DNA from: Polytrichum commune
Lineage: Eukaryota > Streptophyta > Polytrichopsida > Polytrichales > Polytrichaceae
Direction: 5' to 3'
DNA: 64,000 nucleotides
Assembly (NCBI GenBank): GCA_950295325.1
Contig: OX485808.1
Location: 31,392,527 to 31,456,526 of the forward strand
Part shown: in pieces, positions 26,215-51,363 of the stretch
How the letters are laid out: each line of letters opens with the position of its first letter
Position numbering within the stretch: the stretch's first letter is position 1
Program-made: the position numbers and the translations under genes
The notes under the pieces: generated by a model
The model's input: only the letters and a program-made list of their open reading frames with translations
What the model was told of the DNA's origin: nothing
Databases searched by the model: none

Positions 26215-26419
26215 CAATGATCGGGGAGATTTTTGGATATAACCGGTTGAGATCCTAGTGTTTGCAAGTCCAACCGGTTACATGTTGACATCCTCCGGTT
26301 TTCCTGTATTAAATTAGGGTATATTCCATAAATTCCTCTAAAATGATCGGTAATTCTCCTGCAGTTTTGAACTTCAACCGGTTCATCTGTAACTAACTGC
26401 CGGTTCTCCCCGATCATAG
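26215..26419 (+). mobile_element. hAT-like MITE, copy C
   Basis: A 205-bp copy starting nine bases after copy B. It has ends of the type ATGATCGGGGAGA and a perfect 8-bp duplication TTCCCAGT (26207-26214 and 26420-26427). Its target overlaps the right duplication of copy B by seven bases, so two insertions used nearly the same site. Confidence 0.87.
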
Positions 26420-30347: not shown

Positions 30348-30360
30348 TACCATGCATTGA
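30348..30360 (+). repeat. Left target-site duplication of the LINE
   Basis: TACCATGCATTGA occurs here and again at 37814-37826, directly after the TTC tail of the LINE. A perfect 13-bp direct repeat at these two places marks the insertion. Confidence 0.92.
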
Positions 30361-32147
30361 CACCTTGCCAAAACATTCAAACTTTTTTTCCAAAATACAT
30401 ACCCGTTACACGAACAAATAACACTCTCACTCCCATACTTATACAACCACATACAAAAATACCATACCCACCCCCCCTCACGAATCATATATGCAATAAT
30501 AGTAACAATTAGCCCCTCTACTGTAGCATGTAACTTGTACCTACAACAACAACCAACACATAACTGGACATCACAAATATTAGAAAAAATGACCAAACTA
30601 TCTAACCCGCCGGAACAACACATAGACACCCCACACCCATACACGTAATTTTGTAACATATTTAATGATACAATCAACCCCGCCAACACAATACACAAAA
30701 AATTATATGATTACATCCACTTACATCCCGACTCACTTAGCATACAAAATTTACAGGAAACATTCCCATACCTATCAAAGCAACTTATAACGGAAGCCTT
30801 AAGATACAATGAACCCATAAACGAATATACACATCCTAACCCACCCATACCCACCCCACCATCACCATCCGAACCAATCTCACTAACAAGCCTAGAAACA
30901 TATACCATAACATGGAACGTTTCTTCACTTAACACTGCTATGCCATGTCTACAAGACTTAATTACAAGAGAACCCCCGTCGATCATCACCCTACAAGAAA
31001 CCAAGCTATCCGCCACAAAATCCACAAAACACATACAAAGGTTATTTCCCCAATATAAACTTTTCTTTAATAATACACATAACATCACGAGAATCACACG
31101 CCAAAGAATGACCTATAGAGGTTTTAGAGGAGGTCTCCTACTCCTTGTACACATCAAACATGCATTCCCGGTAACATCTCCAAAATATCCACTCCCGCAG
31201 CCATATCCCCTTTTCTCCAAATAACACACATAGCCAACCAATCCCTACAACCTTGGCTCCTACTTAACTTATATATGCCCTCACATGAGGACGACCTACC
31301 TCTCATTCCCACCATCCAAAATACCATTACGGACCAAATCAACACACACCCGAACCACACATATATCTTATGCGGAGACTTTAATAGGAACATTGCCCTA
31401 ATAGGACGACAAAACGACCAACAAATTACACCGCCACAAACAGAGGACTACCTATGGAATTCCTTCATACTCGACCTCGGACTGACATATATTCCAACAG
31501 ATACAACATTCTCTAGACAAGGGAGATACAACTACACACAAAACAGCTTAATTGACGGTTTTTTCATAAAAACCCCTGATAACAACCAATACTCCGCTAC
31601 TACAAACCAACATACTCAACTAAACTCCGATCACATGCCCATTCAACTAAAAATTCCCCCTAATACACTCATCGCTAGAACATCAATTATAGCATCCGAA
31701 CCACCACCAAGAATTCTCAACCCTATCCCAAAGGAGAAAATCGAAGACTTCCACACCAAATTTTTTGAAACTAATTCAACTCAAATTGATGAGCTCATAC
31801 TATTATTAAAACATAGCCAACTAACATATGAACAATGGCAATTAGCATGTGATTCACTAAACACCCTCACCGACAACATCACCAACATTGTCTTAGAAAC
31901 ATGTAGTGCCCCACCCATCCCCACATTGCCAAACCGAATTGCCATCCAAGGAGGCTATCTCCCAAAGAAGCCACAAAAAATTTGGAAACTACACTTGTCT
32001 ACCTACCACCCCATCCGGAAGACAATTTACACCATAAAAAATAAACCGAACTGGCGCACCCACCCTATTATTACCCAAGAAATATACAATCATACTCACG
32101 CTATCATAACCCCACCACCAAACCCCTCTCTCCCACACAACACATGA
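30361..32147 (+). pseudogene. LINE N-terminal part and AP-like endonuclease
   Basis: Frame 1 is open from the first base to a TAA at 30646 and then continues to the endonuclease, which starts near 30898 with TYTITWNVSS. Motifs in order are TWN, QETKL, then after a one-base frame change near 31170 YMPSHED, GDFN (31375-31386), SLIDGFF and SDHMP. These are the metal-binding and catalytic positions of APE-type LINE endonucleases, which nick target DNA to prime reverse transcription. The part ends at an in-frame TGA (32145) just before the reverse transcriptase, where the frame simply continues, so the stop is a mutation rather than a true gene end. Confidence 0.88.
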
Positions 32148-34833
32148 GTGGATGCCCTAGCTAAAATTACAAAAGAAGCTAAGAACAAAGCCCGCAAAAT
32201 CACAACCGACTACACCACCAAACAAATTAAAAAAACCATATCAAAATATCAACAACTCTATGATAAAAGTCCCAAGACTATCAACATAAAAGTTTTTAAA
32301 AATACCGACACACCCCCACTCGATTGCCTCATAGATAGGTACAACAACATTCTTACCAACCCAAAAGACATCGCACAAGAAATACATGCCCAACAATCAA
32401 TCAGTAATAAACCAACTGTCCCAACCTGCTATTATCAACCAGACCACCCACAACAATGCATATGCGGAGTCAGACAATACCCGTGGCATGATCTGAATGG
32501 ATATGCCCTTGAAAAAAGAGCCGAAACATCAACTCCCCTGCATACAAACCTAGATCAAGGAACATATGACATATGCCTTAAAAATTTAGCCAACGGGAAA
32601 ACCCCTGGACCCGAAAAAATACCCAATGCCATATTAAAAAATATGTCACCCAGATTTCATACACTTCTACTGCTATTTTTTACCCACTGCTACAAACAAA
32701 AACAAATCCCCGCATCTTGGAAAACAAGCCTCACAATACTCTTATATAAAAAGGGCAACCCCCACCACCTTACTAACCATAGACCAATCGCACTCGCTAA
32801 TACAATTTACAAACTATTTACTAGTACACTTACAAGCATATTATCCACGTACGGAGAAAAATATCAAATCCTACACGACAACCAAGAAGGCTTTAGGGCT
32901 GAACGATACACCGCACGATAAATTACAAACTCTCATAGCGGCATTAGAAGATGCACGACTTATCACTCAAGATATTTACATACTATACATCGATTTCAAA
33001 AACGCCTTCGGATCTATTGATCATGCCAGACTTCTCGCCATTATGAAGGATCTAGGCTACCCACAAGACGTCGTGGCCTTAGTAGGCAATATCTACTCAC
33101 AATCCACTACCACCTTTAACGGAGAACATTTTGATCAAACAAAACCCATACCCATACAACGTGGCACTATATAAGGTGACACCTTGAGTCCACACTTTTT
33201 TATCATATTTCTTGAACCACTCCTACGATGGCTACAACGAGGTAACAATGGATACACCTTTCACACTTCTAATACAAAACTAAGCTCCGCAGCCTACGCA
33301 GACGATCTAGCCGCAATATCCAATAATTTGCCATCCCTCCAACTCCAACTAAATAAATTGGACAAATTCTGTGAGTGGGCAGGTATGGACCTCGGCATCC
33401 CAAAATGCGCTATCACGGGTTGCCCCAACAAAACAAAATTAAACCCCCAAGCCTTCAAAACACACATAAAAAATATCAACATAAACTTTAGAAATCAACC
33501 CATACCTATCCTAAACCAACACGAGCCATACGTTTATCTTGGAATTAATCTAGTCCCCTCATTACAATGGAAAACTCAAACACACATAACAACAACTAAA
33601 CTAATCAAACAATGCAAGCTACTAACCACATGCCCAGCCACCATGAAACAAAAATTCCAAATGATTGACACGGTCATAAAAGCTGGCATCGCCTACAATT
33701 TCTATGCCGTTCCATATTCACTCCCCGCCATTAAGAAACTCGATAAACGAATAATCGCCCTACACAAAACTATATGCGGCTTACCAAAATGCATGTCCAA
33801 TGCGGTCACACAGCTACCACAAGATATGTTCGGCACGGAAGCCTTTTCACTCAAAAATGCATACCTTACATGTATAGGCGAACAACTTATTAATGCCCTC
33901 AATGACAAATAACGACTAGGAAAAATATATAATGGATTAACTAAATATGGCGGATCCCTTAAACTACCACGCATATCCCGTCAAGATTGTATCCGATCAC
34001 CAATTACACGCACGCTATTCTTACTCAAAACAACAAGTGGCATTCACCTCAAGAGCCAACTCGAGAAATTTCCCCTCCTCCCCACACCCTTAGAAACCCA
34101 ATGGATGCACCAAGCACAAACCATACCAACACTAACTCCCACACTCTCCCTTAAATACCTACATAAATTTATCCTCCACAACATAACCGAACTCAAGCAC
34201 ATAACCCACCCCAACGGCACACATCTTATGACAAACAATGACTTCAAATATTACTATGGTACACTCACTAAAACAACACAAGCCGCCCTAGAACAAGCCC
34301 GAACTTTTTTTTGCGAACCACCGTGTCACAACCCATGCCTAAATAATTGCCCAACACATACCCTATCAAACATCCTCAAAAACCCTTACAAAATACACAA
34401 CCACCATATCGACACACGATTAGAAAGACATAATGCACACCTACCCACACCTCCACCTCCGGAATACCCGAAGCCACCCTCATATATACAAAACAACCAC
34501 ATACAATACCCAATTCACTCTATAATAAATGACCGCCCCCACACCTACAAAGATAAACACAAAATTACCAAAAGCTACATATCCTACCTATGCCAATGAA
34601 TACTCCCCCACGAAACCATATACAACAAGTGGCTTCCCCAAAAAGAATTGTTCCCATGGAACAACCAAAACACCATAAACCATAACATTCTACTTCTAAT
34701 ACAATATTATACCCACAAACAAAATCAACACTTCACCAACATCTTAAAATTACACTTTAATGAAGAACAACTAAGAGACACTAGATACATCCCCCCCCCC
34801 CCCCACACAAATTATACCCCTATGTCATGTTAA
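32148..34833 (+). pseudogene. LINE reverse transcriptase
   Basis: Reverse transcriptase blocks in order: NGKTPGPEKIPNAILK, PASWKTSLTILLYKKG, NHRPIALANTIYK, QEGFRAER, then after a frame change near 32905 YIDFKNAFGSID with the first catalytic Asp, RGTI-stop-GDTLSP where Gln is expected, and SSAAYADDLAA with the catalytic Asp pair at about 33300. A stop at 33910 replaces another codon in an otherwise open frame. The following thumb region continues through a TGA at 34597 and contains a cysteine cluster, CEPPCHNPCLNNC. Broken, but with all catalytic motifs still legible. Confidence 0.9.
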
Positions 34834-34849
34834 TATCAACGAATGTAAC

Positions 34850-35737
34850 CCAGATAATGACATCGCCTGCACTCAACACACCATCCAAAGCCAACATGAT
34901 GTAGCACACATATACGACAATGATGGCCGTCACTTAATTACCATTTCCGAACAAAGACTACAATGGTTGTGGGAACAATACCAAAATGCATTACATATAC
35001 AGCACAATCTCGAACCCCCCACACAATCATTCGAACAAGAAGTTGTATGGTTATACCAAAGGTACAAATACCGAATGCCCAAAAGTGACCCCCTCAAACT
35101 ATCACAATATACACTCCCAAATGCCATCATTAACCATATTATAGATTCCTTCCATATCACACATTCATATTTTTCATCACCCGTCACATGCCCTACCACG
35201 CTAAGACAATTCTCCTCCACTTTCTCCCGAGACAAAGTTTTCGGGTCAAGAGGAACGGCATTCCAACACAAATGGACAGGTAACGGGTATGCCCACCCAC
35301 ATACAGAAACAAACACCCAACAAGCCCTTCACTGGGCAAGACTTGCAGCCCACAACAACCCCGACACAATTACAATCCTTATAACAACTGATCCAAATTG
35401 GTATCAGAACCTTTACCCTCATGAAGGTCCTTTCCCGGACTCACACGTCATCACGCACTTTAAAGTAGACACCATTACATACGAAGAACCCACGATACCC
35501 CCAGAACTACAAATCGAACCTCGAATAGAAAGCAGTGACATTAGAATACTATGTATACACCACAAAACCACGTCCATCGGAACCACAAGATATGCATGTC
35601 GCATGAACACTATCGGCGAATCTCTACAAATACCTACTATGTTCAACACAACCGCACCACCCACACCAATGAACACCTCAGTAAACCGTAGTAAGAAATG
35701 GGCCCAACTCACATACCCGCCCCCCCCCCACCCCTAA
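34850..35737 (+). pseudogene. LINE linker domain of unknown function
   Basis: An open stretch of about 290 aa between the reverse transcriptase and RNase H. It is bounded on both sides by C runs that change the frame. Features seen: ISEQRLQWLWEQYQ at the start, then GNGYAHPH, a helix-like QQALHWARLAAHNNP, and ITILITTDPNWYQNLYP. I do not recognise the family with confidence. The last pattern loosely recalls methyltransferase-like folds with an NPP-type motif followed by a beta strand and PDW, but the key NPP is absent here. Confidence 0.6.
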
Positions 35738-36855
35738 CCCATAATACCACTATTCCACCAATCATAAACCATGACATATGCCTACCCCTCAAATACCCAC
35801 CACAATATTGTTATTATACCGATGGGTCATTTATCCCACCCAAAGCAATAACCCAAGAAAATAGGAGACGAGAAAAGGCAGGATATGGAATATACAACCC
35901 TTTTAAAAACCTTAAAATTTCAGAACGACTACCAGGACTCCAAAATATACTACGAGCGGAATTGATGGCTATCCACCACACCTTATGCCTCCTCACCACC
36001 ACATACCGAAATGAACCCGCACACATTTTCACAGATTGTCTTAATGTTTTATACCTCATAAACACACAAACAAAACACCCAACCTCACACAATAGTCACC
36101 CAAACAAGAAGATACTTGAATCAATTATTAAGATGTTACAATCCCGCACACAAACCACCACACTACATAAAGTCAAAGCCCACACGAATATTAGTGGCAA
36201 CGAGCAAGCAAACAAATTAGCCAAAATGGGATGTGAATTAGAACATAGAGATGCCCTAGCCACGTACGAACACGCACACCCCACGCCATACTACCTCCAA
36301 AAAGGATGGTGGCACTCAATGCAAGATACACCAGATAAAGGCCCCATCCGGCACCTTGGCAAATACATCACTAAATACGACAAAAAACATAACCTAGCCC
36401 TCATAGCAACTCAAACACACCAACTACACAAATGGCTAGATAATAAAGATATTGACAAACCACTATCAAATGATTTTTGGAACAACCCGATTATCACAGA
36501 CAGACAAAAAACATGCCTAGTCAAATTCAGAACCGGACAATACATGGGACATGCTAGAAAACAACTCTTCTTCGGAAGAAATGCATACCCCTCACATACG
36601 TGCCCCATATGCAACACACAAGAAGCATACACATGGTTACATGTACTCCTCAAATGTAAACAACAACACATTCACGCACTAATAACCAAAAGACATAACA
36701 AAGCCGTATGGGAAATACGCAAACTTCTCATCTCAAACAAAAAGACAAGATATTACACACTCATGAATGCAGGTACATATAATGAGCTCCCCCAAGAAAA
36801 CACAATACCATCATGGTTACTTCCATGCACTGCAAAGATGTCACTGCAACGCTAG
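35738..36855 (+). pseudogene. LINE RNase H and CCHC zinc finger
   Basis: Type I RNase H, which removes RNA from the RNA-DNA hybrid. Catalytic positions in order: YYTDGSF (Asp), LRAELMAIHH (Glu), IFTDCLN (Asp) and SGNEQANKLAK (last acidic site supplied by Glu in place of the usual Asp). Downstream is CPIC-x9-HVLLKC, a CCHC finger of the C-x2-C-x9-H-x4-C type that usually precedes restriction-like endonucleases. The frame ends at a TAG at 36853, where the downstream endonuclease continues one frame over. Confidence 0.85.
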
Positions 36856-37267
36856 GCTCAAACCTGACATATTATGCATATTAGGACACCCATATAAGTC
36901 CCCACCACTAGAAGCACCCACACCGGAAATTATAGTTCAATTCATAGAATTCACATACTGTAATGACAGATTCTCCACTGAAACCATAAATCAAAAAATT
37001 ACAAAATATCAACCACTCATAAATAATATTATCGCAAAGGGTTGGAACGTAGCCCCACTTATTGTATTAGCATCTGGTGCTAGAGCCACAACTCACATCC
37101 CCTCAATGAACGAACTTGAAACAAAGCTTAAACCTCCTACATCACAAATTAGGAACACATTCAAACAACTTAACATAATTGCCATACAATATGCATACTC
37201 AATATTAATCCACAAAAGACGAATAGAAAATAAACAACCCATCAAAGACCTACAAAATCATAATTAA
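36845..37267 (+). pseudogene. LINE restriction-like endonuclease (second endonuclease)
   Basis: Carries the PD-(D/E)xK pattern of LINE restriction-like endonucleases: CNARLKPDI (PD at 36863-36868), then QFIEFTYCNDRF at the position of the usual VDVTVPFE, then NQKITKYQPL matching K-x(2)-KY. It continues with GWNVAPLIVLASGARATTH and ends at a TAA (37265). In R2-type LINEs this domain cuts the target site. Here it follows RNase H and a CCHC finger in an element that also has an AP-like endonuclease. Glu replaces the common Asp at the second acidic site. Confidence 0.8.
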
Positions 37268-37767
37268 AATTAGAGAGGGGTAGTGGTCAGACCACTAGTT
37301 ATTAAGTTACCACCTATAGCTCAGAAAGGCGGGGAATAGCCGGCTGGTTGGCATAACTTTCCTGCCTATGATTAACTCACTTGCAGCACCAAGTCAAAGT
37401 GTATTGCACTAACACGCTCAGACGGATTCAACGCGAATCGAACCCGGACCGTATTAATATAACACGCATGTCCTTATCCAACTAACCTTGGAACCATGAC
37501 TTGGCGACCAACTATACAACCAACCACCACTTATACTCCAAACAAATACGCACGCTTCTCGTCTCAAACAAAGTAGCAAGACCCACAAAATTCTAAATCA
37601 AAACCCATGCACCCCACACACCCCCTCCCCCCCCCCCCGGTTCAACCGGTTAAAACATCAGTTACTAACATAGTGTCTACTCCCTGCAAAGGGTGAAGTA
37701 GTATTACACCCAACGCTGCTACCCTGGGGTACGGCCACGGTTGTCCTACGAACATATACTTTATTCA
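37268..37767 (+). other. LINE 3' UTR with tRNA-like stretch on the minus strand
   Basis: Non-coding part between the last stop and the terminal hairpin. On the minus strand it contains TTAGTTGGATAAGG (37472-37485) like a tRNA A box and CCGGGTTCGATTCGCG (37431-37446) like a B box, about 27 nt apart. A full cloverleaf does not fold cleanly, so this is not called a tRNA gene. A run of 16 C residues lies near 37624-37640. Confidence 0.45.
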
Positions 37768-37813
37768 CTCCGGCCCCTGGTAGGGACCGGAGTTCTTCTT
37801 CTTCTTCTTCTTC
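37768..37813 (+). terminator. LINE 3'-terminal hairpin and TTC tail
   Basis: An 11-bp stem with one C-A mismatch and a three-base loop (37768-37792) is followed directly by seven TTC units ending at the right target duplication. A conserved 3' hairpin plus simple-repeat tail is how several LINE groups mark RNA for their own reverse transcriptase. Confidence 0.8.
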
Positions 37814-37826
37814 TACCATGCATTGA
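37814..37826 (+). repeat. Right target-site duplication of the LINE
   Basis: Identical to 30348-30360 (TACCATGCATTGA). It directly follows the TTC tail. Confidence 0.92.
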
Positions 37827-37846: not shown

Positions 37847-38074
37847 CAATGGATGTGAAAAACCGACCACTAGTTATAGATGAACCGGTTGAGTTCAATG
37901 AGACATAACCAATTGAAGTTCAAATCTTCAGAAGAGCTACCCATCATTTAAGAGGAATATGTGGAATATACCTCACATTAATAAAGAAAAACTGAAAGAT
38001 CACAACATGTAACCGGTTGGACTTGAAAACACTTGGATTTTGACCGATTATGTCCAAAATCTCCCAAGACACTG
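37847..38074 (-). mobile_element. hAT-like MITE, copy D (old)
   Basis: A 228-bp relative of copies A-C in the orientation of copy B. It shares AGTTATAGATGAACCGGTTGAGTT and TGTAACCGGTTGGACTTG-type segments. Flanks TGCTGAAT (37839-37846) and TGCTAGAT (38075-38082) match at 6 of 8 bases, as expected for an older insertion. Confidence 0.75.
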
Positions 38075-39756: not shown

Positions 39757-40712
39757 TGTGAGGCCAAACCACACACCCTTAAGCGTCCTAGTCCGGGTGT
39801 TGGAATGGATATCACATTCGTTTCACATAACTCCCTCTCACCAACTTCATTGGGAGTCACTACATTCCTCATTAATTTGTACACACCAATTTATTCCATA
39901 ACAAGATTACAAGTGTTAAGAAACACTCTTCTCTATTATGGCGCTATGCGCGTGCTCAAATACCATCCCACACAACCGCACCCCCGATTGCACGGAGAGC
40001 TACTACCTAGTTAACCCATCCATTTGGCTTAGGATACTAGTCCTAACTAATCATCCCCTCTAACTGCCTCTAATCCGGCTACCCCTTAGTACTCTTTCTC
40101 AGCTAGCCTCATAAGTCTGTTGCAGCTGGTCTTAGCAACCTGTCTCGGCTAGCCTCGGAAGTCTGTCGCAGCTGGTCTTAGCAACCTTAGTAATCTGATT
40201 TTTTTTTTGGCTCCTCCTAATCAAATCTGTCTTCTAAACTACCCCTAATCCAATCTATTCTCTAAGTCCCCTTAATCAAATCTATTCTCTAACACACTAC
40301 ACCACACACACACTCTCACACACACCACAAAAGAGAGAGAAAAAATGAGAGAGGAGGGAGAGAGATGAGAGAGGGCATCCCACAACCATGACCTCTCTAA
40401 CCTTTTCCTACTTAGTAGGACCTTATCCTATCTACTAACTCCCTATCCCCTTAACCAACAATAACATGTTCAAATTCAAACATTTAAATTCAAGGCTCTT
40501 CCCTTGCCTCGTCAAACACTACTACTCTAATCAAAACACTCCCTAATGCCACTAATCCTCTACTTAACCACACAAAATGGCTTAAGGCCTAAACGTAAAT
40601 TCACACCAAGCCTCAATCTTTTTATACTTTTAATTATTTTAACAACACTCCAAATGCAATTCTAAGTAGATCTTAAACATAAAACAAATATGAGCACTCA
40701 TTTTGGGCTCAT
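39757..40712 (+). mobile_element. LTR-like element abutting the LRR array
   Basis: Starts TGTGAGGCCAAACC and ends TTTTGGGCTCATA. It shares its ends and several internal blocks (CTTAAGCGTCC, GTGTTAAGAAACACT, CCTACTTAGTAGG) with the better preserved solo LTR at 57222-58942. Its right end meets the last LRR unit of the NLR gene exactly. No matching 5-bp duplication was found, so the join may result from a later rearrangement. No internal retrotransposon genes accompany it. Confidence 0.6.
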
Positions 40713-42689
40713 AGTCCTCCAAGCCCTTGGGAGTGCATATTCCCGAAGGAAACTCCTCTAGGGCCTCGCAATCCCTCATGTATAATTTCTTTAAACAAGT
40801 GAACCCCCCAACCCTTCCGGTATTATCCTCAAAGATTTGCATCCTTAAAATGTAAGTCCTCCAAGGCCTTGAGACTGCATATTCCCGAAGGAAACTCCTC
40901 TAAGGCATCACAATTGTGCATGTACAATTCCTTCAAACAAGTCAACCTCCCCAACCCTTCAGGTATTGTCTTCAAAGACCTGCAACCATAAAATGCTAAG
41001 TCCTCCAAAGCCTTGAGAGTGCATATTCCCGTAAGAAACTCCTCCAAGGCCTCACAATCCCACATGAACAATTTCTTCAAACTAGTCAACCCCCCCAACC
41101 CTTCCGGTATTGCCTTCAAAGACCTGCAACCACAAAATGCTAAGTCCTCCAAAGCCTTCAGAGTACATATTCCCGTAGGAAACTCCTCCAAGGCCTCACA
41201 ATCCCAGAAGAATAATCTCTTCAAACAAGTCAACCCCCCAACCCTACCTGTATTGTCCTCAAAGATTTGCATCCTCTGAATGATAATACCTCCAAGCCTT
41301 TGAGAGTGCATATTCCCGAAAGAAACCCCTCCAAGGCCTCACAATCCCACATGAACAATTTCTTCAAACAAGTCAACCCCCGCAACCCTTCTCGTATTGT
41401 CGTCAATGATTTGCATTCGTGGAATTGTAAATCCTCCAAAGCCTTGAGAGTGCATATTCCCGCAGGAAACTCCTCCAAGGCATCACAATTGTACATGTAC
41501 AATTTCTTCAAACAAGTCAACCCCCCCAACCCTTCCGATATTGTCTTCAAAGACCTGCAACCACAAAATGCTAAGTCCTCCAAAGCCTTGAGAGTGCATA
41601 TTCCCATAGGAAACTCCTCCAAAGCCTCACAATTGTACATGTACAATTTCTTCAAACAAGTCAACCCCCCCAACCTTCCGGTATTGTCCTCAAAGATTTG
41701 CATCCATTAAATTGTAAGTCCTCCAAGCCCTTGAGACTGCATATTCCTGAAGGAAACTCCTCTAAGGCATCACAATTGTACATATACAATTTCTTCAAAC
41801 TAGTCAAGCCCCCCAACCCTTCCGGTATGGTCCTTAAAGATTTGCATCCATAGAATGCTAAGTCCTCCAAAGCCTTCAGAGTGCATATTCCCGCAGGAAA
41901 CTCCTCCAAGGCATCACAATTGTACATGTACAATTTCTTCAAACAAGTCAACCCCCCCAACCCTTCCGGTATTGTCCTCAAAGATCTGCATCCATTAAAC
42001 TGTAAGTCCTCCAAAGCCTTGAGAGTGCATATTCCCGTAGGAAACTCCTCCAAGGCCTCACAATTCCAGAAGTACAATTTCCTCAAACAAGTCAACCCCC
42101 CCAACCCTTCCGGTATTGTCCTCAAAGATTTGCATCCACTAAATATTAACCCTCCAATGCCTTCAGAGTGCATATTCCCGTAGGAAACTCCTCCAAGGCC
42201 TCACAATCCCTCATGTACAATTCCTTCAAACTAGTCAACCCCCCCAACCCTTCCGGTATTGTCTGCAAAGACCTCCAACCACAAAATGCTAAGTCCTCCA
42301 ACCACAAAATGCTAAGTCCTCCAATGCCTTGAGAGTGCATATTCCCGTAGGAAACTCCTCCAAGGCCTCACAATCCCAAAAGTACAATTTCTTCAAACAA
42401 CTCAACCCCCCCAACCCTTCCGGTATTGTCCTCAAGGATTTGCATCCTGTAAATGATAATTCCTCCAAAGCCTTGAGAGTGCATATTCCCGTAGGAAACT
42501 CCTCCAAGGCCTCACAATCCCAAAAGTACAATTTCTTCAAACAACTCAACCCCCCCAACCCTTCCGGTATTGTCCTCAATGATCTGCAACCATAAAATAC
42601 TAAGTCCTCCAAAGCCTTGAGAGTGCATATTCCCGTAGGAAACTCCTCCAAAGCCTCACAATTGTACATGTACAATTTCTTCAAACAAG
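40713..42689 (-). pseudogene. Decayed 3' part of the LRR array
   Basis: About 13 further LRR units follow the premature stop. They lie in shifting frames because of small deletions, several in the C run that codes for GLGGL (for example near 42699 and 41670, where ACCCTTCCGG has become ACCTTCCGG). Each deletion turns PEGLGGL into PEGWGG followed by a stop. The units are otherwise well kept, so the frame was probably lost recently. The last one is cut by the LTR-like element. Confidence 0.8.
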
Positions 42690-45600
42690 TCAACCCCCCC
42701 AACCTTCCGGTATTGTCCTCAATGATTTGCATCCAAAAAATTGTAAGTTCTCCAAGGCCTTGAGACTGCATATTCCCGAAGGAAACTCCTCTAAGGCATC
42801 ACAATTGTACATGTCCAATTTCTTCAAACAAGTCAACCCCCCCAACCCTTCCGGTATTGTCTTCAAAGACCTGCAACCATAAAATGCTAAGTCCTCCAAA
42901 GCCTTGAGAGTGCATATTCCCGTAAGAAACTCCTCCAAGGCCTCACAATCCGACATGTCCAATTTCTTCAAACTAGTCAACCCCCCCAACCCTTCCGGTA
43001 TTGTCTTCAATGACCTGCAACCATAAAATGCTAACTCCTCCAAAGCCTTGAGAGTGCATATTCCTGTAGGAAACTCCTCCAAGGCCTCACAATCCCAGAA
43101 GTACAATCTCTTCAAACAAGTCAAACCCCCCAACCCTTCCGGTATTGTCCTCAAGGATTTGCATCCTGTAAATGATAATTCCTCCAAAGCCTTGAGAGTG
43201 CATATTCCCGTAGGAAACTCCTCCAAGGCCTCACAATCCCAAAAGTACAATTTCTTCAAACAACTCAACCCCCCCAACCCTTCCGGTATTGTCCTCAATG
43301 ATCTGCAACCATAAAATACTAAGTCCTCCAGAGCCTTGAGAGTGCATAGTCCCGTAGGAAACTCCTCTAAGGCATCATAATTGAACATGTACAATTTCTT
43401 CAAACAAATCAACCCACCCAACCCTTCCGGTATTGTCCTCAAAGATTTGCATTCGTGGAATTGTAAATCCTCCAAAGCCTTGAGAGTGCATATTCCCGCA
43501 GGAAACTCCTCCAAAGCCTCACAATTGTTAATGTACAATTTCTTCAAACAAATCAACCCCCCCAACCCTTCCGGTATTGTCCTCAAAGATTTGCATCCAT
43601 TGAATTGTAAATCCTCCAAAGCCTTGAGAGTGCATATTCCCGTAGGGAACTCCTCCAAGGCCTCACAATCCCCGAAGTATAATCTCTTCAAACAAGTCAA
43701 ACCCCCCAACCCTTCCGGTATTGTCCTCAAAGATTTGCATCCATTGAATTGTAAATCCTTCAAAGCCTTGAGAGTGCATATTCCCGTAGGGAACTCCTCC
43801 AAGGCCTCACAATCCCCGAAGTATAATCTCTTCAAACAAGTCAAACCCCCCAACCCTTCCGGTATTGTCCTCAAAGATTTGCATCCATTGAATTGTAAAT
43901 CCTCCAAAGCCTTGAGAGTGCATATTCCCGTAGGGAACTCCTCCAAGGCCTCACAATCCGAGAAGTATAATCTCTTCAAACAAGTCAAACCCCCCAACCC
44001 TTCCGGTATTGTCCTCAAGGATTTGCATCCTGTAAATGATAAGTCCTCCAAAGCCTTGAGAGTGCATATTCCGGAAGGAAATTCCTCCAAGGCCTCACAA
44101 TCCCAGAAGTACAATTTCTTCAAACAACTCAACCCCCCCAACCCTTCCGGTATTGTCTTCAATGACCTGCAACCATAAAATGCTAACTCCTCCAAAGCCT
44201 TGAGAGTGCATATTCCTGTAGGAAACTCCTCCAAGGCCTCACAATCCCAGAAGTACAATCTCTTCAAACAAGTCAAACCCCCCAACCCTTCCGGTATTGT
44301 CCTCAAGGATTTGCATCCTGTAAATGATAATTCCTCCAAAGCCTTGAGAGTGCATATTCCCGTAGGAAACTCCTCCAAGGCCTCACAATCCCAAAAGTAC
44401 AATTTCTTCAAACAACTCAACCCCCCCAACCCTTCCGGTATTGTCCTCAATGATCTGCAACCATAAAATACTAAGTCCTCCAGAGCCTTGAGAGTGCATA
44501 GTCCCGTAGGAAACTCCTCTAAGGCATCATAATTGAACATGTACAATTTCTTCAAACAAATCAACCCACCCAACCCTTCCGGTATTGTCCTCAAAGATTT
44601 GCATTCGTGGAATTGTAAATCCTCCAAAGCCTTGAGAGTGCATATTCCCGCAGGAAACTCCTCCAAAGCCTCACAATTGTTAATGTACAATTTCTTCAAA
44701 CAAATCAACCCCCCCAACCCTTCCGGTATTGTCCTCAAAGATTTGCATCCATTGAATTGTAAATCCTCCAAAGCCTTGAGAGTGCATATTCCCGTAGGGA
44801 ACTCCTCCAAGGCCTCACAATCCCCGAAGTATAATCTCTTCAAACAAGTCAAACCCCCCAACCCTTCCGGTATTGTCCTCAAAGATTTGCATCCATTGAA
44901 TTGTAAATCCTTCAAAGCCTTGAGAGTGCATATTCCCGTAGGGAACTCCTCCAAGGCCTCACAATCCCCGAAGTATAATCTCTTCAAACAAGTCAAACCC
45001 CCCAACCCTTCCGGTATTGTCCTCAAGGATTTGCATCCTGTAAATGATAAGTCCTCCAAAGCCTTGAGAGTGCATATTCCGGAAGGAAATTCCTCCAAGG
45101 CCTCACAATCCCAGAAGTACAATTTCTTCAAACAAGTCAACCCCCCCAACCCTTCCGGTATTGTCCTCAAAGATTTGCATCCATTAAACTCTAAGTCCTC
45201 CAAGGCCTTGAGAGTGCATATTCCCGTAGGAAACTCCTCCAAGGCCTCACAATTCCAGAAGTACAATTTCTTCAAACAAATCAACCCCCCCAACCCTTCC
45301 GGTATTGTCCTCAAAGATTTGCATTCGTGGAATTGTAAATCCTCCAAAGCCTTGAGAGTGCATATTCCCGCAGGAAACTCCTCCAAAGCCTCACAATTGT
45401 ACATGTACAATTTCTTCAAACAAATCAACCCCCCCAACCCTTCCGGTACTGTCCTCAATGATTTGCATTCGTGGAATTCTAAATCCTCCAGAGATTTGAG
45501 AGTGCATATTCCTGTAGGAAACTCCTCCAAGGCCTTAGAATCCCAGAAGTACAATTTCTTCAAACAAGTCAAACCCCCCAACCCTTCCGGTATTGTCCTC

Positions 45601-48600
45601 AAAGATTTGCATCCATTGAATTGTAAATCCTCCAAAGCCTTGAGAGTGCATATTCCCGTAGGGAACTCCTCCAAGGCCTCACAATCCCAGAAGTACAATT
45701 TTTTCAAACAAGTCAAGCCCCCCAACCCTTCCGGTATTGTCCTCAAGGATTTGCATCCTGTAAATGATAAGTCCTCCAAAGCCTTGAGAGTGCATATTCC
45801 CGTAGGAAATTCCTCCAAGGCCTCACAATCCCAGAAGTACAATTTCTTCAAACAAGTCAACCCCCCCAACCCTTCCGGTATTGTCCTCAAAGATTTGCAT
45901 CCATTAAACTCTAAGTCCTCCAAGGCCTTGAGAGTGCATATTCCTGTAGGAAACTCCTCCAAGGCCTCACAATTCCTGAAGTACAATTTCTTCAAACAAG
46001 TCAACCCCGCCAACCCTTCCGGTATTGTCCTCAAAGAATTGCATCCATTAAACTGTAAGTCCTCCAAGCCCTTGAGAGTGCATATTCCGGAAGGAAACTC
46101 CTCTAGGGCCTCGCAATCCCACATGTGCAATTTCCTCAAACAAGTCAACCCCCCCAACCCTTCCGGTATTGTCCTCAAAGATTTGCAATTATAAAGGTTG
46201 AGTTCTTCCAATGCTAAGTTGCGAAGGCCAACTGGAAGTTTTCCTTGTGGGAATGTGCACTCTTTGAAAGATATCTCTTTCAAGAATTTAGGTTTGAAAT
46301 TTTGAAAAATAGCAGGTGTGCAAATTATGACATTGAAGAGTTCAAGTACACCCAATTGTTGAAGATGGTCTTCAACAATGGTCATGAAGTCTTTGATGAA
46401 ATATGTATGTTGCTCTGAAATGTTGTAGAGAGTTGAAAAATGGATCCTCAACCATTTCAATGTTTGAGTTTTGGTAATAATAGCCAAAAGTAAGTCGATA
46501 TGTTCACAATTCCGAACACTCAATAATCGTAAGTTTCTCATAGTGTTCACACTTATATTTGTTTGAAGCGAAAAAATATTCCTTTCAAATCTAGTAAATG
46601 AGAGGCCTTCCACAAGTTCTATGCTCTGCATATACAACACCAAATGCCATTAATAATCTGGTAGAGTTTTCACCATATTTGATTTTTAACAACGTACCAA
46701 AGAATCAACAACTTCATCTGCATTATGTGTCATACCTTGTGATTCCAATGATTCAAGAATCTTGTCAACGATATATTCCAACCTCGAGTTTGTTGAAACT
46801 CTTTTTCAACAATCATGCGGCCCATATCACGCAATTGATCATGTATCATTAAAAAACCTCTTTCATCAAATTTCACCAATGATTTGTCTTGTAGACTCTC
46901 CATTGTTTGTTGGGTACTTTCCATGTCATCATGAAAGATTCTAAGAAGCTCGGCTTTTGTATAAACCCAATCACTAGTCCACAAGTCATTGGAAAAGAAA
47001 CAAGTTATGTCTAAAAACATACTCTGTTCTTTCTCACCAAGTTCATCAAAGCTAATCCTCAATGTTTCCCATATTCTCCCATCTATGCTTCCATCATGTC
47101 TTGCCCTCAACAACCTTTGTAAAGTTCGCTCCCATATTCTCAACCTCCTCTCTCCATATAAATAACTACCCATCACCTCCAAACTCAAAGGAAGCCCATC
47201 ACAAGCCTTTACAATCTTCTCAACTACATGTTCCAAATATGGCAAGCATGGTTCGTTGCTCGCAAATGCATGGATAGAAAATAATTCTTTGGATTGCTCT
47301 TTATCAAGGGTCTCCATATCTAGTTTACCAACTATAGGTACATGTCGTTTCAAAGACTCCCAACTACGGGAAGTAGCAATTAGTTTACTATCATAATTGG
47401 CAAGACATGTGTGATCACCTAATAGTTCTTCTAGTTGACTTGCATTGCCCACATTGTCCAACACAATAAGAATTTTTTTCGTCCCTTGCAATTGTTTCAA
47501 AAATTTGTGTCCTTCATTCAATGTTTTGGTTTGAGATGGCTCTATCATATCTTGTAGTTTGTATTTCACGTGAATGGTACAACTTTCACATGTCAAGTCA
47601 CCTACAAAGCATGTCGCATCAAATTTGTGGGAGACATGGCTGCTTAGAGCATTTGCCAAAGTTGACTTCCCAATTCCTCCCATGCCAACAATCCCCAAAC
47701 TACCAAGGTCCTGAAGTTGCTTCTCCAATTCCAATATCTTTCCTTTGAGTCCGATCAATTTGGAAATCAGCTTTGTTTCCTTAGTGACCTGCATAAAATG
47801 CCAAATGTAAACTTTAATTGACATGTAACAAACCTCACTAGAAAAATGCACGAAATTCCAATATTAAACTATGTGTTAACAATAAAGTCACAATGCAAAA
47901 CCTTTAGACTCCTACTAAAACTTTGACATTCAAGGTTGACCTAATTCAATGCTTACCTCGTAAGGTATGTTATTTGATGTTGTGATGTTTGAATTCTCTT
48001 GAGCACTTGATGACGAAATGGAATTTGTCTCCAAGAATTTTGGTAAGTAACGTGGCAACCATTGAGCAAAGGTGATAAACATTTGCCACAAAAGAAGAAT
48101 TGGCCATATATTGAGTCCATGGAATTTATGTGTGACCATCCTCCACCACCGCTTTGAATATTCAATAGAATTGCTAGGAGTTGTGGATTTGTGCAAAATC
48201 CTAGCCACTCTCACATCATTGCCAACCTTGAGCATTGCATCACTTTTCAATTTTCTCAACTTCTTAGAAATATAAAGAAATGTGGGCCTATCCAAGGGTT
48301 CCGAAGACCAACATTCATGTATCAATGATTTCAAATCTTCAGAGCAAGTTTTAGGTAACTCCGGTCTCTCATTTTCCAAAAATTTCACATAGTCACGAAG
48401 CATCGTTCCGGTGTAAGGTCTCTTGTTTGAAACAATCTCATAGCACATCATGCCAAAACTAAACACATCTGTTTTGAATGCATCCACCTTTGAACTTCGT
48501 TTTGTATGAGCTTCAGGTGCCATATATCCTTTAGTACCAAAAATACTCCCATTTGTAGGCACTTGTGGGGAGTTTTTCACTTCAATCTTTGAAATCCCAA

Positions 48601-49684
48601 AATCAAGTATCTTCACATGCACATATTCCATTGTTGAGCCACCCTTTGAAGTCAATATAACATTATCAGGCTTCAAATCACGATGCGCCACTTTCATGTC
48701 GTGAAGATAGCACATTCCACTTGCAATTTGTATCATAATGTCAACTGCCATGGCTTCTGTGAGCATACCTTCTTCCAAAAAACTTGATAAGCTCAAAATT
48801 CCTCGTTCCATGACAATTTCCACTCTTTTACCTTCTCCTGCATGCATGTCACATTCTGTTGCGAAGCCACAACAAAAAAACTTGATGATGTTGGGATGAT
48901 TCAATCCGCCCAAAATACTAGCCTCTTTCCAAACGGCTCTTTCATGGTCAAGGTCACCAACTTTGATAACCTTCGTAGCGGTTGCAAATCCTAACCATTG
49001 GGTTGAGTATACATTCCCATTCGTCCCATTACCCAAAGGCTTAGGTATCCTCCCATACTTAGGGGGCTCATAGATATCTGGAAAAAGGATGCTATCTAAT
49101 TCACCGCCCACAACCTTTCGCAACCCCTTTATTCGTTCCATCAAATATTGCAAAAGCATGCAATGATCATGGCAATTGTTAATTGTGCACAAATCCACTT
49201 CATTGAAAAGTCGTTCAAATATTTCATTTTGGTCTTGCTCAACTTCATCAATGGATGTTGGGTAGAATGTTGAAGACTTCTCAATAACTCGCATTTCCAC
49301 TTCACGATTGGGAAAAGATTGGCACAAAGTTTCGCACATTGTGTGGAAACAATACTCAAAGTCCAAGAGAAGTTCTCTGAAATATTCTTTGTTATTAAGT
49401 TGCATTACCACCTCTCGACACCAATCATCAACCTTGCAACATTCTTCAACCATATGCCTTGCTTTCTTCATAATACCAAGCATCTCTTGCTCTACTTGGT
49501 GGAACACATCCGCATCATAAGAACCATCGATCATGCTTTGAATTATTTTCACACCATTTTGAATATTCACCAACAAATTCTTGCATTGCCTACTATTCAA
49601 AACCTTTGGATTCTCCTCTACTTTAGGGAAGTTTGTAACTTCCATTAGTAAGCCTTGTATGTTTGTCAAGCTTTGCATATGTTC
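42690..49684 (-). CDS. Kinase-NB-ARC-LRR immune receptor (PNL class), possibly disrupted
   Basis: Intracellular immune receptor of the class known from mosses. Exon 47957-49684 codes for a helical N-terminal region of about 200 aa and a protein kinase with LGNGTNGNVY, VIKV, HRDLKPDN, DFG and GYMAPE all intact, then a hydrophobic stretch (WPILLLWQMFITFAQWLP). Exon 46736-47788 codes for NB-ARC: GMGGIGKST, LIVLDNV, LIATSRS, GLPLSLEV, LDITCFF and IHDQL. Exon 42690-46625 begins SIELVEGLSF, has a short spacer and then 24 LRR pairs before a premature TGA at 42690. These exons give about 2239 aa. The splice AG at 49686-49685 implies a further 5' exon that I could not place; an in-frame ATG at 49678 is the alternative start. 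A possible frameshift at the NB-ARC end is listed as a finding. Confidence 0.88.
42993..45020 (-). repeat. Higher-order duplication within the LRR array
   Basis: A block of about 875 bp at 42993-43868 recurs almost unchanged at 44145-45020. The offset is exactly 1152 bp, or eight 144-bp units. Residue changes unique to single units, such as LYMFNYDALEEF with GLCTLK, appear in both copies, so the duplication is recent relative to unit divergence. Confidence 0.9.
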
Positions 49685-49769
49685 CTGGAAAATCATACAC
49701 AAAATATCAATATATAATATACTTATGTAATATACCAATATGCAAGACAAAAAAAAAATTCTCATTATT

Positions 49770-50939: not shown

Positions 50940-50960
50940 ACTGAATTGTACTTCAGACGT

Positions 50961-51363
50961 GTAGTTTCCATTAAAATGAGAGTATGTTAAGCTGGGAAAT
51001 CGACTCATTAAGGTTGAGTCGACCTAAATGAGGACAATATTTTGTCAATTTAGGTTGAGTTGACCTAAATGAGGACATTATGTTGTCAATTTAGGTTGAG
51101 TCGACCTAAATGAGGACAATATTTTGTCAATTTAGGTTGAGTCGACCTAAATGAGGATATTATGTTGTCAATTTAGGTTGAGTCGACCTAAATGAGGATA
51201 ATATGTTTGTCAATTTAGGTTGAGTCGACCTAAATGAGGACAATATTTTGTCAATTTAGGTTGAGTCGACCTAAATGAGGACAATATGTTGTCAATTTAG
51301 GTTGAGTCGACCTAAATGAGTCAATTTCCCAGCTTAACATACCCTCATTTTAATGGAAACTAC
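50961..51363. mobile_element. Foldback element with eight 41-bp units
   Basis: Near-identical inverted ends of about 50 bp, starting GTAGTTTCCATTAAAATGAG at 50961 and ending with its complement at 51363. They enclose eight tandem copies of a 41-bp unit. Each unit contains the near-palindrome TTTAGGTTGAGTCGACCTAAA and a spacer such as TGAGGACAATATTTTGTCAA. No coding capacity and no clear target duplication. The whole element could fold into a long hairpin. Confidence 0.85.

Follow-up and report, generated by a model that had tools for sequence, protein, structure and literature searches.

A probable Dualen/RandI-type LINE family with two endonucleases and a PCIF1-like domain in a land-plant, probably moss, genome

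Results

I analysed a 64,000-nt stretch of DNA, hereafter called the window (C6:31392527-31456526 of a 407.8-Mb, 64-contig assembly, which was also the target of all own-genome searches). As found by six-frame reading, Pfam searches, and homology to other copies, the plus strand of the window carries a broken, 5′-truncated long interspersed nuclear element (LINE) at 30361..37813. With a probability of about 0.82, it is a dead copy of a Dualen/RandI-type LINE family that has two endonucleases and has expanded in the genome of a land plant, probably a moss. Three traits of Dualen/RandI, an apurinic/apyrimidinic endonuclease (APE) located N-terminal to the reverse transcriptase (RT), an RNase H, and probably a second nuclease at the C-terminus, occur in the window copy and in other copies. 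Dualen/RandI is the best reading for filing the family and not a proven one, as Dualen was compared by description only. The most surprising part of the element is another domain, which resembles the methyltransferase-fold protein PCIF1.

A broken copy between target-site duplications

The copy is flanked by a 13-bp direct repeat, TACCATGCATTGA, which is found at 30348..30360 on the left and at 37814..37826 on the right and is the target-site duplication. It was the sole direct repeat longer than 10 bp that a script found in the 23 sequences examined. In blastn searches against the fetched loci, similarity to other family copies begins at 30360 and ends at about 37802-37815. Since these homology limits coincide with the limits of 30361-37813, the latter are correct, and the boundaries given in a preliminary description of the same stretch proved to be exact. 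The open pieces on the plus strand span 30649-37267 and are interrupted by in-frame stops and several changes of frame. The order of the Pfam domains in these pieces is APE, RVT_1, PCIF1_WW (PF12237), and RNase_H; the piece at 33913-34596 has no Pfam match. Since other copies extend further upstream, the window copy is 5′-truncated, and the 5′ part of the family is absent from it.

Target duplications are available for three copies, that is, the window copy and two copies read by eye, one with about 12 bp (L026) and one with about 8 bp that overlap the start of homology by two bases (L027); the L020, L025, and L028 copies extend past the fetched stretch. The 3′ flanks differ in all of the 27 distinct insertion places. 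Thus, the family has no fixed insertion target such as rDNA. As a separate observation, one arm of an inverted repeat pair (26231-26383 and 37907-38059; 153 nt, 81% complementary, 11.5 kb apart) lies immediately downstream of the LINE.

APE endonuclease and reverse transcriptase

The APE domain of the window copy (30907..31643, plus strand) is broken by a frame change and was detected by Pfam as Exo_endo_phos_2 (1.3e-10) and Exo_endo_phos (3.9e-5; 24.0 bits, slightly below the curated cut-off of 24.5). An AP-type endonuclease with QETKL, GDFN, and SDHMP motifs before the RT had been proposed in the preliminary description, and the QETKL, GDFNR, and SDHMP motifs are indeed present. The active-site motifs are intact in five of the seven aligned copies, L017 and L021 having one change each.

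The RT core with the YADD motif (32751..33549, plus strand) is divided into three pieces, with RVT_1 E-values of 0.048, 0.0012, and 2.5e-8, only the last of which is above the cut-off in this broken copy; the L009 copy gives 2.5e-26. When the RT profile of the family was compared with PDB sequences, R2 was the closest (7.8e-25) and L1 ORF2p gave 9.6e-16. An unrooted RT tree was made of 14 sequences from R2, this family, human L1, and moss L1. The family forms one clade with a support of 100, and the split between R2 plus this family and human L1 plus moss L1 has an ultrafast bootstrap value of 99. Thus, a grouping with L1, which had been named beforehand as an outcome that would speak against Dualen/RandI, was not seen. 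The tree excludes L1 and does not by itself prove Dualen, because its 14 sequences include neither an outgroup nor a Dualen sequence. L1-type RTs also exist in this genome (best match to the human L1 RT, 1e-40). The best own-genome matches to the human L1 RT score 100-147 bits, and L030 and L029 of the present family score 66.6 and 65.2 bits, respectively. Apart from this family, L039-L042 of the same genome have L1-type RTs in long open frames of 637-1483 amino acids.

A probable second endonuclease behind a CCHC finger

Between the RT and the C-terminal nuclease region lies an RNase H (35803..36234, plus strand; PF00075, 2.1e-15), which was also found in other copies including L029. It is followed by a CCHC finger (36601..36657, plus strand), which was recognised by eye and whose four ligands are kept in all 11 aligned copies. 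This order of RNase H, finger, and nuclease agrees with the preliminary description. The next segment (36836..37264, plus strand) shows the pattern R-L-K-P-D-I ... F-I-E-F-T ... K-x-x-K-Y and is a probable restriction-like (PD-D/E-xK) endonuclease of the R2 type. Over the roughly 150 residues after the finger, KPDI, FIEF, and KxxKY appear in turn, and the nuclease of R2Bm has KPDI, IVDV, and KRNKY with similar spacing (PDB 8gh6; entry 8ibw has A in place of that D). The joint pattern is present in R2Bm and the window copy, and of the 28 loci read, 26 have it, at 25 distinct places, the exceptions being L021 and L024. The PD residues are kept in 27 of the 28 loci, L024 having HD. No match to the joint pattern was found in 200000 shuffles of the L009 segment, a figure that is optimistic because the pattern was drawn after both R2Bm and the family had been inspected. 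Judging from motif and position, the C-terminal segment is probably a second, restriction-like endonuclease.

Long open copies across the genome

The LINE is one member of a large family. The C-terminal region was matched by all of the 150 scored candidates, out of 4136 first-look candidates, and each of the seven large contigs, as well as C24, carries such matches. Two of the stretches, C24:13397-13831 and C3:876184-876618, share a match score and a frame length; C24 may be a duplicate or an alternate haplotype of the C3 stretch. Twenty copies were fetched first and then ten further stretches. The longest stop-to-stop frames are 2169 amino acids in L009, 2919 in L029, and 2924 in L030; the latter two, fetched whole, each read through as a single frame of roughly 2,900 codons. 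Their layout is a leader, a StopGo/2A-like motif, a conserved part of 150-190 amino acids, APE, RT, PCIF1-like domain, RNase H, CCHC finger, and, probably, a restriction-like endonuclease. The Pfam domains of the window copy were also found in L009-L011, L017, and L029. The enzyme parts of L030, L009, L010, and L011 are 61-64% identical to that of L029.

In the copies read, the APE and the C-terminal nuclease regions occupy the expected positions and have low ratios of nonsynonymous to synonymous substitution rates (dN/dS). The ratios were taken from the near copies L009, L010, and L011 only, dS being saturated in distant pairs, and they are 0.06 for the RT, 0.06-0.10 for the RNase H, 0.10 for the PCIF1-like domain, and 0.09-0.10 for the CCHC finger plus restriction-like endonuclease.

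A PCIF1-like domain without the catalytic asparagine

The PF12237 family includes the cap m6Am methyltransferase. In the window, a domain of this family lies between the RT and the RNase H (34931..35650, plus strand; 7.3e-11, 42.4 bits against a curated cut-off of 31.1), with AHPH in place of NPPF. It was missing from the domain list of the preliminary description. All four scanned long ORFs that span the region have it (L009, 1.6e-9; L010, 9.8e-9; L011, 6.2e-10; L029, 2e-12). In the whole genome, PF12237 was above the curated cut-off in all of the 150 scored candidates (697 at first look), and it was found in none of the 14 control genomes. The resemblance to PCIF1 itself is weak: zebrafish PCIF1 (6irx) gave an E-value of 0.065 by phmmer with the window domain, and in a PDB search with the family profile PCIF1 ranked first and second (6irx, 0.012; 6irv, 0.077). 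A 66-residue piece of zebrafish PCIF1 found no match in the genome, a kind of search that is uninformative. PCIF1 and the LINE domain have an FSSP...C...FGS.G region in common.

The A-N-P-P-F position of PCIF1 reads A-H-P-H, or A-H-P-P or A-H-P-D, in the aligned copies. The catalytic N of NPPF is replaced with H in all of the 30 readable copies, which are 20 of the 21 rows of one alignment and all ten further copies (L028 is unreadable at a piece junction). Thus, the domain is probably a pseudo-enzyme. Its low dN/dS indicates that it is maintained by selection despite the loss of N and F. Since the loss of the catalytic motif is common to the copies and the dN/dS is low, the PCIF1 fold may have acquired a second use that is non-catalytic, and the domain may bind RNA or the cap. 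In the titles and abstract openings of the open-access papers searched, no report was found that links PCIF1 with retrotransposons, retroelements, or algae in such an element. Viral contigs scanned with the PCIF1-like alignment or with the C-terminal nuclease alignment showed no relative.

StopGo/2A-like motifs upstream of the enzyme part

Upstream of the enzyme part, L029 reads LLRSGDIETNPGPM and L030 reads GDIKPNPGPM. When a script searched the 22 long loci for NPG preceded by a G-D/A-I/V/T context, 16 of them proved to have between one and three consecutive StopGo/2A-like motifs (L009-L011, L013-L019, L021-L024, L029, and L030); the other six start after the motif region, are truncated, or lack it. 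The truncated window copy is also without the motifs, which were therefore not visible to the preliminary description. A strict DNA pattern for GDIExNPGP, which includes LLRSGDIETNPGP in L029, was found at 255 places in the genome, in several synonymous spellings, and at none in a reversed control. For 37 of 68 PF12237 hits, the same strand has a motif within 3-8 kb upstream, the observed distances being 4.0-6.3 kb, whereas random placement gave a mean of 0.11 hits; this pairing covered 100 listed of the 255 motif places, of which C1 and C2 hold 99, and those 68 of the 150 listed PF12237 hits that are on C1 and C2. L029 and L030 are 49% identical in the stretch after the motif. From the conservation of the motifs, it seems that they may split leader products from the enzyme polyprotein. 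The described core of 2A is (D/G/C/N)(V/I)ExNPGP, functional variants of it being rare, and a 2026 survey, as far as its excerpts go, saw no evidence for natural StopGo use by plant viruses (both from PMC12846837).

The 3′ end and its tail

With blastn, 23 fetched loci aligned to the upstream part of the 3′ untranslated region (37268..37670, plus strand); L011, L026, L027, and L028 align near the end only, and L030 gave no blastn alignment. This upstream part is followed by a conserved, probably folded RNA end (37671..37793, plus strand) and by a terminal (TTC)n tail (37794..37813, plus strand). The 3′ end of about 123 nt is common to subfamilies whose proteins are 61-64% identical. For eight divergent copies, RNAalifold predicted 40 pairs, ten of which have changes on both sides, and the 3′ end of L030 folds better than its shuffles (z-score, -3.69). 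Most tails are (TTC)n; L029 and L030 have (ATCT)n instead, and L025 has a T-run. No Rfam family was found in the window at gathering scores, one chance match appearing at a loose threshold, and ARAGORN with the bacterial code found no tRNA in the window. As a side observation made by eye, the reverse complement of 37282-37505 and of the 3′ regions of L029 and L030 looks tRNA-like (GGTTCGATTC); this part is absent in L011, L026, L027, and L028.

Host and neighbouring loci

Auxin-response-factor domains gave ten matches in the host genome and none in the 14 control genomes. A locus with kinase, NB-ARC, and leucine-rich-repeat parts lies near the LINE at 42.7-49.8 kb of the window; the preliminary description had named a moss-type nucleotide-binding leucine-rich-repeat (NLR) gene beside the LINE. 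I take these two features together to indicate a land plant or a close streptophyte. The number of large contigs, seven, and the kinase-NLR type of the locus would fit a moss. On the minus strand at 46733-49765, a protein kinase ORF (1.4e-43) adjoins an NB-ARC ORF (5.2e-25), as in a kinase-type NLR locus. Very regular 144-bp tandem repeats (40700-46643; families of 35-37 copies) encode leucine-rich repeats, partly in one minus-strand frame of 1317 amino acids. Further away, 41-bp tandem repeats at 50960-51361 also form an inverted pair.

Discussion

Evidence against the assignment and alternative readings

Several results weigh against the picture drawn above. A failure of the segment at 36845-37267 to match restriction-like endonucleases by profile had also been named beforehand as an outcome that would speak against the claim, and this failure occurred: Pfam gave no match to the C-terminal nuclease segment, and the profile of its alignment gave none in PDB at E<=10. 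Pfam on the 11 members of the nuclease alignment gave one weak SwaI-like match (0.1), outside the nuclease region. In hhalign, the nuclease part of the 28 loci matched R2Bm with a probability of 0.2%, and shuffled controls reached 2.4%. These negative profile tests are weak, because in a control the R2Bm nuclease retrieved, at E<=10, R2Bm entries and none of the other R2 proteins (1121-1390 residues) in the PDB set; the tests may therefore miss even the similarity of one R2 nuclease to another. Thus, of the dual-endonuclease layout claimed at the outset, the APE stands, and the second nuclease is probable at the level of motifs, without a profile match. Single-sequence structure prediction was unusable for both the nuclease (mean pLDDT score, 38.8) and the PCIF1-like segment (36.0). 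As for StopGo, the motif adjoining the enzyme part in the window subfamily is GDIHPNPGP in all 14 copies seen, not the canonical E form. The leader before the motif is poorly conserved (about 22% identity between L029 and L030), and A/C-rich sequence is stop-poor by composition; therefore, this stretch of the open frame may be protein-coding only in part. For the consensus fold, the covariation term was as small as -0.19, and the 3′ end of the window copy folds no better than its shuffles (z-score, -0.80).

Could the element be an ordinary plant L1 whose C-terminal segment is an unrelated tail and no second endonuclease? The profile searches of that segment, negative without exception, would suit this idea; it is nevertheless very improbable, since the RT falls outside the human and moss L1 group with a support of 99, the matches of L029 and L030 to the human L1 RT lie below the best ones in the genome, and the R2-like spacing of the C-terminal pattern recurs at 25 distinct places and in none of the shuffles. 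A more serious, though still unlikely, alternative is a new dual-endonuclease clade outside Dualen/RandI, in which APE and a restriction-like nuclease were united a second time by a separate fusion and the PCIF1-like domain marks the lineage. The comparison with Dualen by description only leaves room for such a clade, as does the fact that the PCIF1-like domain and the 2A chain appear in no Dualen description examined, as excerpted. On the other hand, the domain set, the RNase H, and an RT nearer to R2 than to L1 agree with the excerpted Dualen descriptions, and the 3′ ends with short repeats resemble those of the RandI-linked short interspersed elements (SINEs) of Chlamydomonas (PMC3747384). 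Algal contamination of the assembly might be imagined, as Dualen has been described from green algae; the chance of this is negligible, and the placement of the copies refutes it, as none of the seven large contigs is free of matches and the window copy, with its perfect target duplication, stands beside the kinase, NB-ARC, and leucine-rich-repeat locus. A Dualen/RandI-type family resident in the plant genome is thus the reading retained here.

For the PCIF1-like domain, an active methyltransferase with an altered motif (HPP or HPH), which would mark the RNA or DNA of the element, seems rather improbable. The low dN/dS of the whole fold region and the H-P-P retained in some copies (L029 and L031) would fit such an activity. 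However, the positions of N553 and F556 are both altered in the 30 readable copies, and the excerpted report on human PCIF1 describes inactivation by the joint change of N553 and F556 (PMC10544176). Even a single F-to-H change in Drosophila PCIF1 has been proposed, in the part of the paper seen, as a possible cause of the absence of m6Am (PMC9479742).

A possible mechanism and its significance

The insertion mechanism would be target-primed reverse transcription, whose footprint, a truncated 5′ end and a target duplication (here about 8-13 bp), was seen in three copies. Reverse transcription may start at the conserved folded 3′ end of the RNA with its short-repeat tail, a structure that the comparison of copies supports and whose recognition is presumed. 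One endonuclease might open the first strand and the other might help to cut the second. The StopGo motifs, given their conservation, would separate the leader products from the enzyme polyprotein. In the least certain step, the PCIF1-like domain without its catalytic N and F would bind RNA, which is more probable than methylation; its ligand might be the transcript of the element itself, held at the capped 5′ end. If so, one protein would hold both the capped 5′ end and the folded 3′ end of the RNA, which might provide cis-preference and a check for intact transcripts.

Published accounts, as excerpted, place Dualen in few lineages: it was reported from Chlamydomonas and its relatives (PMC8226300, PMC3747384), and LINE/Dualen was reported in cryptophytes (PMC12747079). 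The LINEs named in the excerpts of a 2022 review of land-plant transposable elements are L1 and RTE only (PMC9033089), and no report of Dualen/RandI in moss or land plants was found in the titles and abstract openings of the open-access papers searched. The origin of APE-bearing LINEs by replacement of a restriction-like nuclease has been argued from Dualen (PMC4640811). With its many copies, some of which have long open frames, a land plant may be a tractable host for asking what the two endonucleases do. A PCIF1-family domain in a LINE polyprotein is unexpected and would connect mRNA cap chemistry to retrotransposition, while StopGo motifs in a plant element would extend a mechanism best known, according to the excerpted account, from viral sequences and the LINEs of trypanosomes and animals (PMC4981915). 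It may tentatively be imagined, with considerable doubt, that a dual-endonuclease LINE lineage persisted in land plants, captured a domain of the cap-methyltransferase family that now serves as a non-catalytic RNA- or cap-binding module, and is expressed via a chain of natural StopGo sites.

Comparison with known systems

Dualen/RandI of Chlamydomonas and its relatives combines APE, RNase H, and a restriction-like nuclease within a single element (PMC4640811, PMC3636483, PMC8226300), of which the present family shares the first two and probably the third, and the SINEs linked to Dualen/RandI have short-repeat 3′ tails (PMC3747384). The present family differs in its land-plant host, its PCIF1-like domain, and its 2A-like motifs, insofar as the excerpted descriptions set them apart. 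The R2 group of LINEs (R2Bm, R2Tg), whose RT is the nearest in the PDB set, shares the order of a CCHC finger and then KPDI...(D/E)...KxxKY. In contrast to R2, which has a single restriction-like endonuclease, no APE, and a fixed target, the present family has APE and RNase H and no fixed target. Plant L1 LINEs also have APE and RNase H, and differ from the family in the RT clade, the C-terminal nuclease, the tail, the PCIF1-like domain, and the 2A-like motifs.

PCIF1/CAPAM is like the LINE domain in the PF12237 match and in the FSSP...C...FGS.G region. However, it has NPPF where the LINE domain has AHPH or AHPP, and the LINE domain is fused inside a polyprotein, no WW domain being found in L029. 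Methylase-bearing retrotransposons (DAM in DIRS; DCM in DIRS and Ty3/Gypsy) likewise have a methyltransferase-family domain within the polyprotein, although the methyltransferase families and the orders of the elements are other than those of this LINE. Finally, the 2A/StopGo core GDIExNPGP of LINEs and viruses is matched here, whereas the candidate motifs of this family often come two or three in a row, and in many of them the E is replaced by H, K, Q, or Y.

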